A stretch of DNA of 48,825 bases from the NCBI GenBank assembly GCA_016219015.1, contig JACRCL010000021.1, positions 1-48,825 on the forward strand, given 5' to 3'. Below are positions 3,822 through 40,254 of this stretch, one piece after another; the first letter of the stretch is position 1; every line of letters starts with the position of its first letter. Position numbers and translations under genes: made by a program. The notes beneath the pieces are model-generated. The model had not been told where the DNA came from. It made no database searches and saw only the letters and a program-made list of their open reading frames with translations. The stretch comes from Deltaproteobacteria bacterium. GTDB lineage: Bacteria > Desulfobacterota > GWC2-55-46.

Positions 3822-3867
3822 TAATTAAATTCCGTTAAGATGCTGCTTAAAATTAAAATCACATAAA

Positions 3868-3979
3868 GGCTGCTCAAAAAGCTACAGATGCGAGGCGTCA
3901 AGGAGCGAGGAATGAGGCGTACTCTCCTTACGCTATGACAAGACGCAGACAACAAAGCAGATGGATTTTTTGAGCAGCC
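3868..3979. repeat. Inverted-repeat element, family 2 (GGCTGCTCAAAAA ends)
   Basis: A 112 bp element with terminal inverted repeats GGCTGCTCAAAAA and TTTTTGAGCAGCC. It ends 2 bp before the ispD stop codon and fills the ispD-ispF gap. The inner sequence ACAACAAAGCAGATGGA recurs in related form at 17504-17668 and 45251-45275. It could act as a transcription attenuator between ispD and ispF. No target duplication is evident. Confidence 0.75.
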
Positions 3980-3981
3980 TG

Positions 3982-4674
3982 TTAGAGCCCCGCGGCCCTT
4001 TTCCTGAGGACGCACTCCGCGAAGGCGAGGTCGTCCTCTGTCGTTATCTTTATGTTCTCGTAAGCGCCTTCGACCACGCTTACCTCGGCCCCGAGCCTTT
4101 CAACGAGCGAGCTCTCGTCGGTGCCAATGAACGAGTCCTTTTGCGCCGTCTCAAAGGCCTTCAATAACAGCTCAGTCCTGAAGGCCTGAGGCGTCTGGAC
4201 GGACAGGAGCGACTCCCGTTGAAGCGTTTTCTTTACGCGGCCGGAGGATGTCTCCTTGATGGTGTCCTTGGGGCGCACCCCGCATACCGCGGCGCCGGTC
4301 TCGACAGCGGCCCTGATGACGGCCTCTATTATGCCGGGGGTGACAAGGGGCCGCGCCCCGTCGTGGACGGCTACTATGTCGAACCCTTTGGCGAGCTTCA
4401 GGGCGTTGGCGACGGAGTCCTGCCTCTCGGCCCCGCCCTCCACTACGCCGATGACCTTCTTAAACCCGTATCTGGCCACGACCTCATGCCTGCAATACTC
4501 GGCGTCGGACGGTTGGACCGCGACGACGATGGAAGTGACAACGGGGCACTGCTCGAACGCCGAAAGGGTATGCGCGAGCACGGGCCTGTCCAGGAGGGCC
4601 AGGAAGTTCTTCCTCCTCGACCCCATCCTCCGTCCCATGCCGGCGGACGGTATTATGGCGAGTACCTTTTTCAA
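3982..4674 (-). CDS. ispD: 2-C-methyl-D-erythritol 4-phosphate cytidylyltransferase
   Basis: Third MEP-pathway enzyme: transfers CMP from CTP to methylerythritol 4-phosphate. 230 residues. The nucleotide-binding loop reads IIPSAGMGRRMGSRRKNFL (family G-x-G-x-R-M and K), and VAVHDGARPLVTP is the conserved CTP/metal segment. The start is a TTG at 4674; the assignment rests on the family N-terminus (KKVLAIIPSAG) because no ATG fits. It is in the same direction as ispF and is separated from the PIN-TRAM gene by 95 bp. Confidence 0.96.
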   Translation of the reverse strand: MKKVLAIIPSAGMGRRMGSRRKNFLALLDRPVLAHTLSAFEQCPVVTSIVVAVQPSDAEYCRHEVVARYGFKKVIGVVEGGAERQDSVANALKLAKGFDIVAVHDGARPLVTPGIIEAVIRAAVETGAAVCGVRPKDTIKETSSGRVKKTLQRESLLSVQTPQAFRTELLLKAFETAQKDSFIGTDESSLVERLGAEVSVVEGAYENIKITTEDDLAFAECVLRKRAAGL

Positions 4675-8735: not shown

Positions 8736-9188
8736 CGGTCCTCCGAATTTGCCACGGGCGAAACTTGCCACTGGCGAATCTTGCCGCGAGCGCCGCGGGA
8801 TAAGAGTGCGGCCACGGTTAAGTTTAGGCTACCTCTAAAAATTGTTCTTTTTCCTGACCTCTATGTCAGGTCGGAAATAAAAATGCTCACATATTAACGT
8901 ATATGCTGCGCTTTTTATTTCCGCCCTTCCTTGACTTCAGAAAAAATCCCTGATTTTTATAGGCATCCTTTAATTCCAGGCGGGTTTGCCTGTGGAACGG
9001 CGGTCGAAAGGGGCGAGTCCTTAGAATAGGGCTTTCCCGAAGGCAAATTTTGCCGCCTCCATGATACCACCGTTCGAAACCATAGTCAAACTATTAAACG
9101 GCCCTTGGCTGGAAGCTGAATGAGGTTGAAAAGCGCCGGAGGAGCTTGGGGAGCGGGAGGATGAGTTTTTCGCCTTGGTCTTTGGGGC
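8736..9188. other. Intergenic region without a gene (8736-9188)
   Basis: A gap between the TPR gene and a small minus-strand gene. It holds MITE copy A (8827-8968). The remaining 220 bp (8969-9188) show no convincing coding frame, terminator or promoter. It contains runs such as GGCAAATTTTGCC (9043-9055), a perfect short palindrome of unknown meaning. Confidence 0.6.
8827..8968 (+). mobile_element. MITE-like element, copy A
   Basis: 142 bp beginning GGCTACCTCTAAAAATT and ending with a degenerate inverted copy (GATTTTTATAGGCATCC). It is flanked on both sides by TTTA, a putative 4-bp target duplication. The interior has a CCTGAC/GTCAGG hairpin and CGCTTTTTATTTCCGCCCTT, shared with the copies at 9624 and 27751. 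It encodes nothing, so it is probably a non-autonomous element moved by a transposase elsewhere. Confidence 0.85.
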
Positions 9189-9470: not shown

Positions 9471-9623
9471 GCGTGATATTTTCCTTGTTTGCCATTTTGA
9501 TGTCAAGGACAAAAGAGACAAAGGCGGCAATAAAGAGGTTGACACGGGCTATGCGTTAGATTATATTTCAAATAAGGATTTAGATTTCCTGAAAAATCCC
9601 CCCGGTCTGAAATCAAATCTGAA

Positions 9624-9755
9624 GGCTATCTCTAAAAATCAGGTATTTTTTCTGAAGTCAAGGAAGGGCGGGAATAAAAAAGCGCAGCAATTGTCCATTT
9701 TTATTTTCGCGCCTGACGCAGAGGTCAGGAAAAAGAACAATTTTTAGAGGCAGCC
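9624..9755 (-). mobile_element. MITE-like element, copy B
   Basis: 132 bp in inverse orientation to copies A and C. Read on the minus strand it begins GGCTGCCTCTAAAAATTG and contains the same CCTGACCTC/GTCAGG hairpin and AAGGAAGGGCGGG motif (plus strand). It is flanked by TGAA on both sides, again a 4-bp duplication. It ends 31 bp upstream of the trxA start, so it may carry or disturb the trxA promoter. Confidence 0.85.
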
Positions 9756-9786
9756 TGAAATCATAAGCCCGAAAGGAGCATTATTA

Positions 9787-10113
9787 ATGGCGGAAAACAT
9801 CGTTAACGTGTCTGACTCCAATTTTGAGGCCCTCGTGCTGAAGTCCGAGATACCCGCTCTCGTGGATTTCTGGGCCAGCTGGTGCGCGCCGTGCAGGGCC
9901 ATAGCTCCCATCGTGGAGGAGATGGCCAACGAGTACACCGGCAAGGTCCGCGTCGCCAAGATGAACGTGGACGACAACCCGGCAACCCCGGGCAGGTACG
10001 GCGTAAGGGGCATACCGACGCTCATACTTTTCAAGGGCGGCAAGGTCGTCGACCAGCTCGTGGGAGCGGTGCCAAAGAACCAGATAAAAGACCTTATTGA
10101 AAAAGGTATCTGA
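9787..10113 (+). CDS. trxA: Thioredoxin
   Basis: 108 residues, cytoplasmic dithiol-disulfide oxidoreductase. The active site is WCAPC (residues about 34-38) rather than the usual WCGPC; the family cis-Pro follows in RGIPTLILFKGG. AAAGGAG precedes the ATG at a proper distance. It is followed by a strong terminator, so it is probably transcribed alone. The Gly-to-Ala change between the two cysteines is seen in some thioredoxins and would shift redox potential modestly. Confidence 0.96.
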   Translation: MAENIVNVSDSNFEALVLKSEIPALVDFWASWCAPCRAIAPIVEEMANEYTGKVRVAKMNVDDNPATPGRYGVRGIPTLILFKGGKVVDQLVGAVPKNQIKDLIEKGI

Positions 10114-14706: not shown

Positions 14707-14842
14707 TTGAACACCATAGCGAGCGCATTCCCCGAAGAAAAGCCGCGTGGAATCTTCGACACATAAGGAAATTTCGATTTCGGTTCGCTCGCTAAACCCC
14801 GCTGCAAGCAGCGGGGAATGCGCTAAGCTGTGTGTATTCAAC
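14707..14842. repeat. Inverted-repeat element, family 3 (copy 1)
   Basis: The outer arms TTGAACACCATAGCGAGCGC and its inverted counterpart ending ATTCAAC bound about 136 bp. The interior ATCTTCGACACATAAGGAAA and CCGCTGCAAGCAGCGG recur in inverse orientation at 35981-36092. It lies between two signalling genes and encodes no protein. Confidence 0.75.
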
Positions 14843-14915
14843 AAGTTCCAAAGCTGAAAGAAAAAAGGCCCGCGCGGGTCCCGCGCCGCTTTTTCGGCGA
14901 CAAGAGGGCGGTCGA

Positions 14916-17504
14916 ATGGAAAGCGAAAAGGAACGGATAGCCCGGCTTGAGGCCGAGGTCTCGGAGCTAAAGGCCGATATCGAAAGGGCGCGCCTGCACG
15001 AGCGCGACCTCGACGAGACCAGGAGGGCCATGCTCTTCCTGCTCGAAGACACGAGCGAGGCGGCCGCCGGGATCGCGAAGGCGAAGAAGGACTGGGAGGC
15101 GACCTTCGACTCGATCTCGGACCTCCTTTTCATACACGACAACGACATGAAGATAGTCAGGTGCAACAGGGCCTACGAGGAGACCGCCGGGCTGCCGTTC
15201 AAGGAGATAATGGGCAGGCCCTACTACGAGGTCTTCCCCAAAATGAACGGCCCGTTCGGCGCGTGCTTGAAGAAGGCGGAAGGCCTGGAGCAGGAGGAAG
15301 AGGAGGTAGCGGCCTTGCCGCACCTTGACAGGGTATACAAGATAAAGTTCTTCTCGGTGAGCGAGGACGGGAAGAACACCTTCGTCCACGTGATGGAGGA
15401 CATAACGACCGAGAAAAGGGCCGGGGAGGCGCTGAAGGCCTCCGAGGACAAGTACCGCCACCTTTTCGAGAACTTGAATGACGCGGTCTTTCTCGCGGAC
15501 ATAGCCACGGGCAGGGTAATAGAGACGAACAGGAAGGGCATGGAGCTGCTCAATAGAACGCGGGAAGAGATAATCGGCATGCACCAGGGCGAGCTCCATC
15601 CGCCGGGCAAGGCCGACGAGTACAGGAGGCGTTTCTCCGAGCACGTCGAAAGGGGGAATAAGGCGGATTATGACGGCGAGGTGGTCCGCAAGGACGGGGT
15701 CCAGGTGCCTGTCACGGTAAGCGCCACGGTCGTCAATATCGGCGGTAAAGACCTTTTGCTCGGCATATTCAGTGACATCACGGAGCGGAAGAAGGCGGAG
15801 GAGAAGATAAAGGAGGAGATGGAGCTGAGCAAGCACCTCCTGATGATAGCCAACGCCACGGCGCATACGACTGACATGAACAGGCTCATGGCGCAGGTCG
15901 CGGAATGCGTGCTGAACATAATGAGGTGCGACGTCGCGCTCTCGTACGTCTGGGACAACGAGAGGTCGGTATTCCAGCCGTCGCAGGGCGCGGGCCTTAC
16001 GCACGAGTTGGTCCCTTTCTTCAGGGTGAGCGCCCTTGCGCCGGACGTCCCTTTCATAAGGGAGGCCCTCGGGTCGAAGGGGCCGGTCATCGAGAGGTTC
16101 ACCCGTGAAGGCGGAGGGCTGCCGCATAAGACCGGGGCGGATATGCCCTCCGGCGCCTTGCCGCCGGCGGGGGCGGAGGTCTTCCACTGGATGCCAAGGC
16201 TCAAGCTGGCGGTAGCCATGCCGCTCATAGGCAAAGAGGACCACCTTGGCCTGCTCGTGTGCCTCTACTCCGGCGCAGGCAGGTTCCCGGACGGGTTATC
16301 GCAAAGGGACAGGGAGGTCATGGACGGGATCTCCTTCCAGGTATCCACGGCTCTCGACGAGGCCCGGCTTTACAAGGACTCCATGGACAAGGCCATGGAG
16401 CTGTCGCGCAAGGTCGAGACTATCCAGACCATGCATGAGATCGATACGGCCATACTGTCCACCATCCAGCCGCAGGAGATACTCGAGACAGCCATGAGGA
16501 TGGTCGCAAAGATGGTCTTTTGCGACAGGGCGACGGTGGCCCTGCTGGACAGGGACAGGGGCGGGTTCATCTACTCCGCGGGCTTCGGCACCGCCAATAT
16601 CGAGAAAGGCTCTTTCATACCTTTCAGCGATACCAGCGCGACCGACGTCGTCAAGACCGGGAGGCCGCAGTACGCGGCGAACATAAAGGAGCTTCGCGGG
16701 CTGCTGCCGCTCGAAGCAAAGCTGCTGAATGAGGGTTTCGTATCCCATATAAGGGTCCCGCTCGTCGTAAAAGGCGATGTGACGGGGGTGCTGAGCATAG
16801 GCGCGAAGAGGCCGTCCGCCTTCACCCCGGACGACCTGAGCATCCTTGAGAAGCTCTCCTCCCAGATAGGCGTGGCCCTCGAGAACGCAAGGCTGCTTTC
16901 GGACCTCGAAGGGCTCTTTATCGGGATAGTGAGGACCCTGTCGGAGGCCATCGACGCCAAGAGCCCGTGGACTGGCGGCCATTCCGAACGGGTCACAAGC
17001 ATAGCCATGCAGATAGGGAAAGAATTGGGGCTCAAGGGGGAGGAATTGAAGAGGCTCGAGCTCGCGGGCCTCCTTCACGACATCGGCAAGCTCGGCACCT
17101 ATGAATCGATCCTCGACAAGCCGGGCAGGCTCACCGAGGACGAGGTCAGGATAATAAAGCTCCATCCGGAAAAGGGCGCGGAGATACTATCCCCCATACG
17201 GCAGATGAGGGACATAATACCCGCCATCAAGCACCACCACGAGTTCTATGACGGCACGGGCTATCCGCAGGGGCTCAAGGGCGAGGAGATCCCGCTCATG
17301 GCCCGGATATTGACCGTGGCGGACACGGTGGACGCAATGGGCGCGGACAGGCCTTACAGGAAGGGCAGGTCGATGGACAAGATAATAGTTGAGATCAAGA
17401 GGTGCTCGGGCACGCAGTTCGACCCGAAGTTGGTGGAGGCTTTTTTAAGGACCCTGGGGGAAGAGGCGGCGGGCTGTTGGCGGTGTGACGAGTTGAAGCC
17501 ATAG
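14916..17504 (+). CDS. PAS-PAS-GAF-GAF-HD-GYP protein, predicted cyclic-di-GMP phosphodiesterase
   Basis: 862 residues from the ATG at 14916, preceded by GAGGGCGG. N-terminal coiled coil (ERIARLEAEVSELKADIE), PAS 1 (about 60-170), PAS 2 (about 175-295, ending IFSDITERKKAEE), a GAF-like region (about 305-490), a second GAF (about 505-670) and an HD-GYP domain. The catalytic set is complete: GGHSERV, LLHDIGKLGTYESILDKPG, LHPEKGAEIL, HHHEFYDGTGYPQGLKG and ADTVDAM. It lacks membrane segments, so it is cytoplasmic and would sense a soluble or partner-derived signal and hydrolyse cyclic-di-GMP. Confidence 0.93.
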   Translation: MESEKERIARLEAEVSELKADIERARLHERDLDETRRAMLFLLEDTSEAAAGIAKAKKDWEATFDSISDLLFIHDNDMKIVRCNRAYEETAGLPFKEIMGRPYYEVFPKMNGPFGACLKKAEGLEQEEEEVAALPHLDRVYKIKFFSVSEDGKNTFVHVMEDITTEKRAGEALKASEDKYRHLFENLNDAVFLADIATGRVIETNRKGMELLNRTREEIIGMHQGELHPPGKADEYRRRFSEHVERGNKADYDGEVVRKDGVQVPVTVSATVVNIGGKDLLLGIFSDITERKKAEEKIKEEMELSKHLLMIANATAHTTDMNRLMAQVAECVLNIMRCDVALSYVWDNERSVFQPSQGAGLTHELVPFFRVSALAPDVPFIREALGSKGPVIERFTREGGGLPHKTGADMPSGALPPAGAEVFHWMPRLKLAVAMPLIGKEDHLGLLVCLYSGAGRFPDGLSQRDREVMDGISFQVSTALDEARLYKDSMDKAMELSRKVETIQTMHEIDTAILSTIQPQEILETAMRMVAKMVFCDRATVALLDRDRGGFIYSAGFGTANIEKGSFIPFSDTSATDVVKTGRPQYAANIKELRGLLPLEAKLLNEGFVSHIRVPLVVKGDVTGVLSIGAKRPSAFTPDDLSILEKLSSQIGVALENARLLSDLEGLFIGIVRTLSEAIDAKSPWTGGHSERVTSIAMQIGKELGLKGEELKRLELAGLLHDIGKLGTYESILDKPGRLTEDEVRIIKLHPEKGAEILSPIRQMRDIIPAIKHHHEFYDGTGYPQGLKGEEIPLMARILTVADTVDAMGADRPYRKGRSMDKIIVEIKRCSGTQFDPKLVEAFLRTLGEEAAGCWRCDELKP

Positions 17505-17668
17505 ACGGACGCAATAAATGTCTTTATACTTTGTTGTCCTCCTCGGAAAATCCTCGACGTACAAAACAAGTACGCCTGCGGTTTTCCTCGTCGGCCGCCT
17601 CGTCTAAAGCCATTTCTTGCGTCCGTGTGATGGCTAATTCATAAGGCAGATGGACTTTTTGAACAGCC
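17504..17668. repeat. Compound palindromic repeat, family 2 (copy 2)
   Basis: GACGGACGCAATAAATG at the start is mirrored by CATTTCTTGCGTCCGT at 17611-17626. An inner palindrome surrounds GTACAAAACAAGTAC. The right end GCAGATGGACTTTTTGAACA matches the right end of the 3868-3979 element. It starts at the HD-GYP stop codon and ends at the slp stop codon, so it fills the whole convergent gap and may serve as a bidirectional terminator. Confidence 0.7.
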
Positions 17669-18210: not shown

Positions 18211-18387
18211 TTAAGGAACCTCTGATTAATTCGCAACAATATGTCATTCTGAGCGTGTGAGCCGAAGCCCTGAGCGAAGCGAAGGGGAAGAATCTAAGTA
18301 GTATACAAATCAGCAAGTTACGAGATTCTTCGGTCGCTCCGCTCCCTCAGAATGACAGGGAGGCATAATTAATCAGAGCTTTCTTAA
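18211..18387. repeat. REP/BIME-like repeat, family 1 (complete copy)
   Basis: A 177 bp element bounded by inverted ends containing CTCTGATTAATT (left) and AATTAATCAGAG (right). Inside are two divergent half-palindromes: TGTCATTCTGAGCGTGTGAG ... GAAGAATCT and AGATTCTTCGGTCGCTCCGC ... CAGAATGACA. This is the best-preserved copy in the window and occupies most of the slp-udp gap. Confidence 0.85.
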
Positions 18388-27714: not shown

Positions 27715-27750
27715 AATTTACAGGTACGGCAACCCTTAGCATTAAATAAA

Positions 27751-27892
27751 GGCTACCTCTAAAAATTGTTCTTTTTCCTGATCTCTGTGTCAGGGCGAAA
27801 ATAAAAATGCTCACATATTATCATATATGCTCCGCTTTTTATTTCCGCCCTTCCTTGACCTCAGAAAAAATATCTAATTTTTAGAGGTAGCC
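27751..27892 (+). mobile_element. MITE-like element, copy C
   Basis: 142 bp with perfect terminal inverted repeats GGCTACCTCTAAAAATT and AATTTTTAGAGGTAGCC, flanked by TAAA on each side (4-bp target duplication). It is the most intact copy; the interior matches copies A and B. It lies between the rhodanese terminator and a family-1 REP repeat. Confidence 0.9.
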
Positions 27893-27900
27893 TAAAACCT

Positions 27901-28052
27901 TTAGGAACCTCTGATTAATTCGCAACAGCATGTCATTCTGAGCGTGTGAGCCGAAGCCCTGAGCGAAGTGAAGGGGAAGAATCTCGTAGTATGCAAATCA
28001 GCAAGTTACGAGATCCTTCGGTCGCTCCGCTCCCTCAGAATGACAGGAAGAC
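27901..28052. repeat. REP/BIME-like repeat, family 1 (right end missing)
   Basis: Starts with the same CTCTGATTAATT end as the copy at 18211 and keeps both inner half-palindromes (GTCATTCTGAGCGTGTGAGC and TTCGGTCGCTCCGCTCCCTC), but the right terminal arm is absent. No gene is seen between 27689 and 28163. Confidence 0.8.
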
Positions 28053-40106: not shown

Positions 40107-40254
40107 TTAGGGAAACTCTGATTTATTCTGTTTTCTGTCATTCTGAGGGAGCGTAAGCGACCGAAGAATCTCGTAACTTGCTGATTTGTCTAAATACGAG
40201 ATTCTTCGCTTCGCTCAGAATGACAGGGTTGCGAATTAATCAGAGCTTCTTTAG
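40107..40254. repeat. REP/BIME-like repeat, family 1 (near-complete copy)
   Basis: Left end AAACTCTGATTTATTC and right end GAATTAATCAGAGCTTC bound TGTCATTCTGAGGGAGCG ... CGAAGAATCTCGTAAC and GAGATTCTTCGCTTCGCTCA. It fills the gap between the coiled-coil gene and ftsH. Confidence 0.8.

Follow-up and report, generated by a model that had tools for sequence, protein, structure and literature searches.

A 142-bp sequence with inverted ends, at positions 27,751-27,892, recurs in variant form at two other places of the same contig. This raises the question of what kind of element it is, how it was moved, and where its interior came from. The window, i.e. the whole stretch of DNA that was analysed (48,825 nucleotides), is one of the contigs of a 2.24 Mb 'Deltaproteobacteria' metagenome-assembled genome (MAG) from groundwater, with 33 contigs and 96.6% completeness.

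Copies in the window

The initial annotation had described three copies with 17-bp inverted ends, each flanked by a repeated tetranucleotide (TTTA, TGAA and TAAA). Copies, coordinates, ends and flanking repeats all proved exact, and the ends are far above chance: the 17-bp end sequence occurs five times in the window at up to 2 mismatches, where 0.07 occurrences are expected at up to 3 mismatches. The copies are as follows.

8827-8968, plus strand: MITE copy 1, 142 bp, target duplication TTTA at 8823-8826 and 8969-8972, with a degenerate right tip; missing from the same-genus genome G001
9624-9755, minus strand: MITE copy 2, 132 bp (apical deletion), target duplication TGAA at 9620-9623 and 9756-9759; thioredoxin promoter on one side, start codon on the other
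27751-27892, plus strand: MITE copy 3, 142 bp, perfect 17-bp terminal inverted repeats, target duplication TAAA at 27747-27750 and 27893-27896

Copy 2 is inverted relative to copies 1 and 3 and carries two mismatches in one end and one in the other, while the right end of copy 1 has four mismatches to the 17-bp end. The whole element forms one long imperfect hairpin, in which CCTGA pairs with TCAG of the opposite arm; copy 3 folds at -53 and -67 kcal/mol on its two strands (z -10 and -12). The initial annotation had also pointed to a conserved CCTGAC/GTCAGG hairpin. As a local structure this is neither the preferred fold nor the conserved one; it is the global hairpin that is conserved, as its covariation attests. 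The window holds no matching transposase, as had been noted.

Amplification, target duplication and empty sites

The same ends are abundant across the host genome. The 17-bp end was found 95 + 95 times at up to 2 mismatches, against 0 + 1 for a reversed-pattern control, and the 28-bp left end at least 100 times at up to 3 mismatches. Duplications were measured on 85 copies with both ends, in stretches taken around copies. Identical 4-mers flank 36 of the 85, compared with 4.9 expected by random re-pairing of the flanks (p ~1e-22), and in 22 further copies the two 4-mers differ by one base. Since none of the 85 has a 5-bp flanking repeat, the duplication is exactly 4 bp. It is AT-rich, with target sites of the type TTTA, TTAA, TTAT and similar (T first in 32/36, A last in 27/36). 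Copies elsewhere in the genome thus carry the same 4-bp duplications as those in the window. Against this stand the 49 of 85 measured copies without an exact duplication, which is put down to decay or other loss.

The duplications also bear on whether the element is a transposon at all. Spread by recombination or gene conversion, in the manner of REP/BIME units mobilised by a tyrosine (Y1) transposase, would account for the long hairpin, the intergenic placement and the failure to find a DDE_Tnp_1 transposase. However, Y1 transposases are not known to leave a duplication, and the exact 4-bp repeats around 36 of 85 copies contradict such an origin, which we regard as highly improbable.

The length distribution of the copies has maxima at 142-143 and 130-132 bp, and the 62 full-length copies have a mean pairwise identity of 93%. 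Deletion forms of 46-88 bp retain both ends, some still with duplications. Among the 37 copies having full flanks, 36 are intergenic. MITE copies also lie at the extreme ends of contigs C16, C17, C24 and C26 of this genome, where the assembly seems to break. Longer variants (L093:94-321, L105:4110-4337, L112:1414-1731 and L114:5292-5523) contain an extra, structured-looking insert of about 86 bp (GCGCAGGGCAAAATCTCGAACGGAGCC..GTCCGGCAAGGACTGC) that has no match in Rfam and is duplicated in tandem once, in a copy with TAAC duplications at its flanks. Another copy, L142 (G000:C14:76869), has an insertion of about 117 bp of a third repeat (GGAATCTTCGACACATAAGGAAGATTCCGATTCGCTCGC), and a similar repeat is present in L131.

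Evidence of movement comes from G001, where the loci of copies 1 and 2 align on both sides and both copies are missing; the copy-2 site there holds a different short repeat. Sites in relatives are therefore not always occupied, and these empty sites, together with the genome-wide 4-bp duplications, support the reading of the repeat as a MITE. In another genome (L073), a MITE copy is split by a second MITE with CTAA duplications at its flanks. The site of copy 2, before the thioredoxin gene, lacks the element in all family loci inspected.

9539-9567, plus strand: thioredoxin promoter TTGACA-17-TATATT, sequence read directly; conserved in the family and upstream of copy 2
9787-10113, plus strand: thioredoxin gene, with copy 2 in its leader

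Because copy 2 sits between the conserved promoter and the start codon, the thioredoxin transcript should carry its hairpin in the leader.

The element is present family-wide: DNA matches were obtained in 26 of 30 family genomes, reaching 96% identity across genera, as well as in four genomes of other families of the order. In named genomes, exact matches to the left end were confined to 'Deltaproteobacteria' MAGs, several of them from groundwater. These results add to the known MITEs a family-wide element of about 100 copies in groundwater bacteria that have not been cultured; one of its copies occupies a thioredoxin leader.

The putative mobilising enzyme and other MITEs

To find an autonomous partner, we searched 30 family genomes for the terminal inverted repeats followed by non-MITE sequence, inspected 27 loci and examined all resolvable left ends. 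These, and four IMG/VR contigs with the 17-mer, yielded only MITEs, internal deletions, nested repeats and chance matches. Every resolved copy is short, and none combines these ends with a transposase. The element was also not found in plasmids, phages or IMG/VR, the last searched with the 28-bp left end. Of 10 family genomes, 9 lack PF01609 (DDE_Tnp_1), the one transposase family searched, among them a single-contig complete genome, and the tenth gave one partial match; as a control, the same model matches in 9 of 14 control genomes. From the ends and the target duplication alone, we infer a candidate DDE-type transposase acting in trans, perhaps lost, of a family other than PF01609, or missing from these assemblies. 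Such an enzyme would cut at the GG..CC ends and join them with a 4-bp stagger.

Derivation from the IS5 group was considered and set aside. The duplications are mostly of the TTTA/TTAA/TTAT/TGAA type and not YTAR, and the host genome has no PF01609 match.

The window contains a second MITE family (18215-18383, 40111-40250 and a partial end at 27904), with GGAAGSTCTGATTAATT ends, YTAR duplications (TTAA, TTAG) and an interior TGTCATTCTGAGCG... This family is IS5-like: of the 12 copies measurable in the loci collected, 8 have a 4-bp target duplication, and 7 of these are YTAR. It resembles the present element in its tip (GGAACCTCTGATTAATT vs GGCTACCTCTAAAAATT), its 4-bp duplication, its length of about 140 bp and its occurrence in the same genomes, but differs in the YTAR duplication and in the interior.

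Bacterial MITEs such as Correia/NEMIS, RUP and the Chunjie element of Geobacter uraniireducens have been reviewed (PMC2229807, PMC10969869). Like the present element, they are shorter than 200-250 bp, with terminal inverted repeats, a target duplication, tens to hundreds of copies and hairpin transcripts. The present element has 17-bp terminal inverted repeats, a fixed 4-bp duplication, dispersed short copies without transposase, and empty sites. Its AT-rich 4-bp duplication sets it apart from Correia, ERIC and RUP, for which TA-type ends are tabulated. It is a real MITE, ordinary in mechanism; the unusual part is its hairpin core, which, in contrast to bacterial MITEs in general, is related to hairpins behind stop codons. 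Within the resources searched, ISfinder not among them, it matches no described family. New relative to the initial annotation are the very large number of copies, the distribution across the family, the absence of a recognisable partner and this relation of the core.

The hairpin core and its tip-less relatives

What is specific to the MITE is confined to its tips (GGCTRCCTCT); the remaining core of about 120 bp is a long hairpin that also occurs without them. We aligned 34 tipped and tip-less copies and built from them a covariance model, R1. The alignment describes one long hairpin with 87% of cells paired (the structure of alignment A2 was taken from RNAalifold), and 26 of 47 pairs are double-changed, a result reached in 0 of 500 shuffles and far above slid controls. 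With R1, 38 of 48 genomes of the order give matches, and tip-less hairpins are detected at 33-68 bits, with one to five in each low-copy genome. In family f7 the DNA match is limited to the core; unrelated sequence takes the place of the tips, in some cases in tandem arrays. At one f7 locus (L192:114-576), about four core hairpins lie in tandem at 129 bp spacing, immediately following the stop codon of a gene that resembles methyltransferases.

Of the 16 tip-less hairpins of low-copy genomes that were examinable, 14 begin no more than 10 bp past the stop codon of an ORF on the same strand. The genes ahead of them, to judge by their C-termini, include hdrA (five genera, two families), lpdA and lptG. 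Downstream of hdrA, some genomes have the hairpin, and others lack it or have different hairpins in its place, even within one genus. On their own, the tip-less hairpins again covary strongly (25 of 39 pairs double-changed), with arms that vary between copies yet stay complementary. A second model, R2, was built from these tip-less stop-codon hairpins alone and matches both the core of the MITEs and further hairpins in the window.

27758-27885, plus strand: core hairpin of MITE copy 3, matching R2 at 61.7 bits, E 2.4e-15
17503-17628, plus strand: tip-less related hairpin immediately after the stop of ORF 14832-17504; R2 54.6 bits, E 3e-13
3865-3982, minus strand: tip-less related hairpin with CAGGCTGCTCAAAAA arms, immediately after the stop of minus-strand ORF 3982-4674; R2 32.4 bits, E 1.6e-6

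The window MITEs score E 2e-15 and 1e-14 with R2. A sequence-only HMM of the tip-less hairpins also matches MITE copies, at E 3e-9 to 1e-5, so palindromy is not the only basis of the link between core and hairpins.

IS elements are a frequent source of MITEs, and the core could be an internal remnant of a lost insertion sequence in an ordinary MITE, with a coincidental or convergent likeness to stop-codon hairpins. The pairwise similarity of the two consensus sequences is indeed short (27 points, with 3 of 2000 shuffles as good). But three conserved blocks occur in the same order and in the same covarying helix layout, and independent models match in both directions, which makes an IS remnant unlikely in our view.

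The best explanation overall, and one we hold with considerable confidence, is a non-autonomous MITE amplified to about 100 copies per genome, whose body appears to share ancestry with the stop-codon hairpins. The body between the tips is a long covarying hairpin, apparently akin to those behind stop codons in related families. In the simplest history, such a hairpin would have acquired tips recognised by the transposase, or an older mobile hairpin would have had its own tips replaced. The outcome would be a mobile element that also folds into a stable hairpin at each place of insertion, for instance in the leader of the thioredoxin mRNA.

The history may also have run the other way, with the stop-codon hairpins of families f2, f4 and f7 going back to old MITE insertions whose tips disappeared while the hairpin was retained at the 3' end of the mRNA. 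Some f7 copies retain a recognisable right tip (L191), the f2 genome G036 has tipped copies, and presence behind hdrA is patchy, all of which would fit. Set against these are hairpins with arms that are unrelated yet complementary, found in low-copy genomes of several families and in the same orientation behind the same genes; tip decay alone would not create new complementary arms. We consider this reverse course doubtful, though a little less so than an IS remnant. Which of the two, MITE core or stop-codon hairpins, descends from the other is not proven, and because the pairwise scores are modest, convergence on a common hairpin motif keeps some residual probability. One hairpin module is seen in a single bacterial order both as a tipped mobile element and as a tip-less element behind stop codons. 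The long-open question of where MITE interiors originate, and that of why elements such as ERIC have a conserved structure, thereby become testable by comparative genomics.

In G000, MITE left ends at first seemed to favour stop codons, but this came from comparing unequal flanks; once the flanks were made equal, no orientation bias was left, and 7 of 18 versus 4 of 19 MITE ends lie within 10 bp of stop codons. For the given orientation, A.C mismatches outnumber G.T mismatches (A4, 23:7; A2 f1/f2, 63:18 with one constant column dropped; f7, 48:37; G000, 50:31). This excess favours folding of the opposite strand, but the cells are non-independent, so no conclusion is drawn.

No Rfam model reaches its gathering score and nothing relevant was returned there, and literature searches on the sequence blocks gave unrelated papers only. 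Among known repeats, ERIC/IRU, the 127-bp enterobacterial repeat, resembles the element in length and in its long imperfect palindrome. Reading the sequences directly, we find the blocks TCACWTAC..GTAWGCTCC (apical) and CTTGTC..CCTTCCT (flank) in the same order in ERIC and in the stop-codon hairpins. On 49 kb of E. coli, R2 has a single match at E up to 5, namely the ERIC element located there, at full length and with a weak score (E 0.13), and both ERIC copies score 16 bits. Against the stop-codon hairpins, the ERIC consensus is equalled by 1 of 2000 shuffles; compared directly with the MITE consensus, it is not above shuffles (378/2000), and R1 gives no match on ERIC. The termini of ERIC are TA and its ends are different (PMC2229807); the present element has GG..CC ends and a 4-bp duplication. 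The link to enterobacterial ERIC is suggestive, not proof.

More tentatively, and with a probability we place on a par with that of the reverse history, the tipped MITEs, the stop-codon hairpins of the order and ERIC could form one ancient superfamily of covarying hairpins of about 125 bp across phyla. Their conserved loops would be bound by a host factor, and repeated gain of transposase tips, with different ends and target duplications, would confer mobility. Yersinia ERIC at gene ends is reported to alter mRNA stability through RNase E (PMC2229807, PMC10969869), and this offers the best functional analogy. IMG/VR contigs (L333-L346) likewise contain a hairpin sharing the apical block (CCTCACGTAC..GTACGCTCCGGTT), which reaches up to 30 bits with R2, a score biased by the choice of these contigs by that block.
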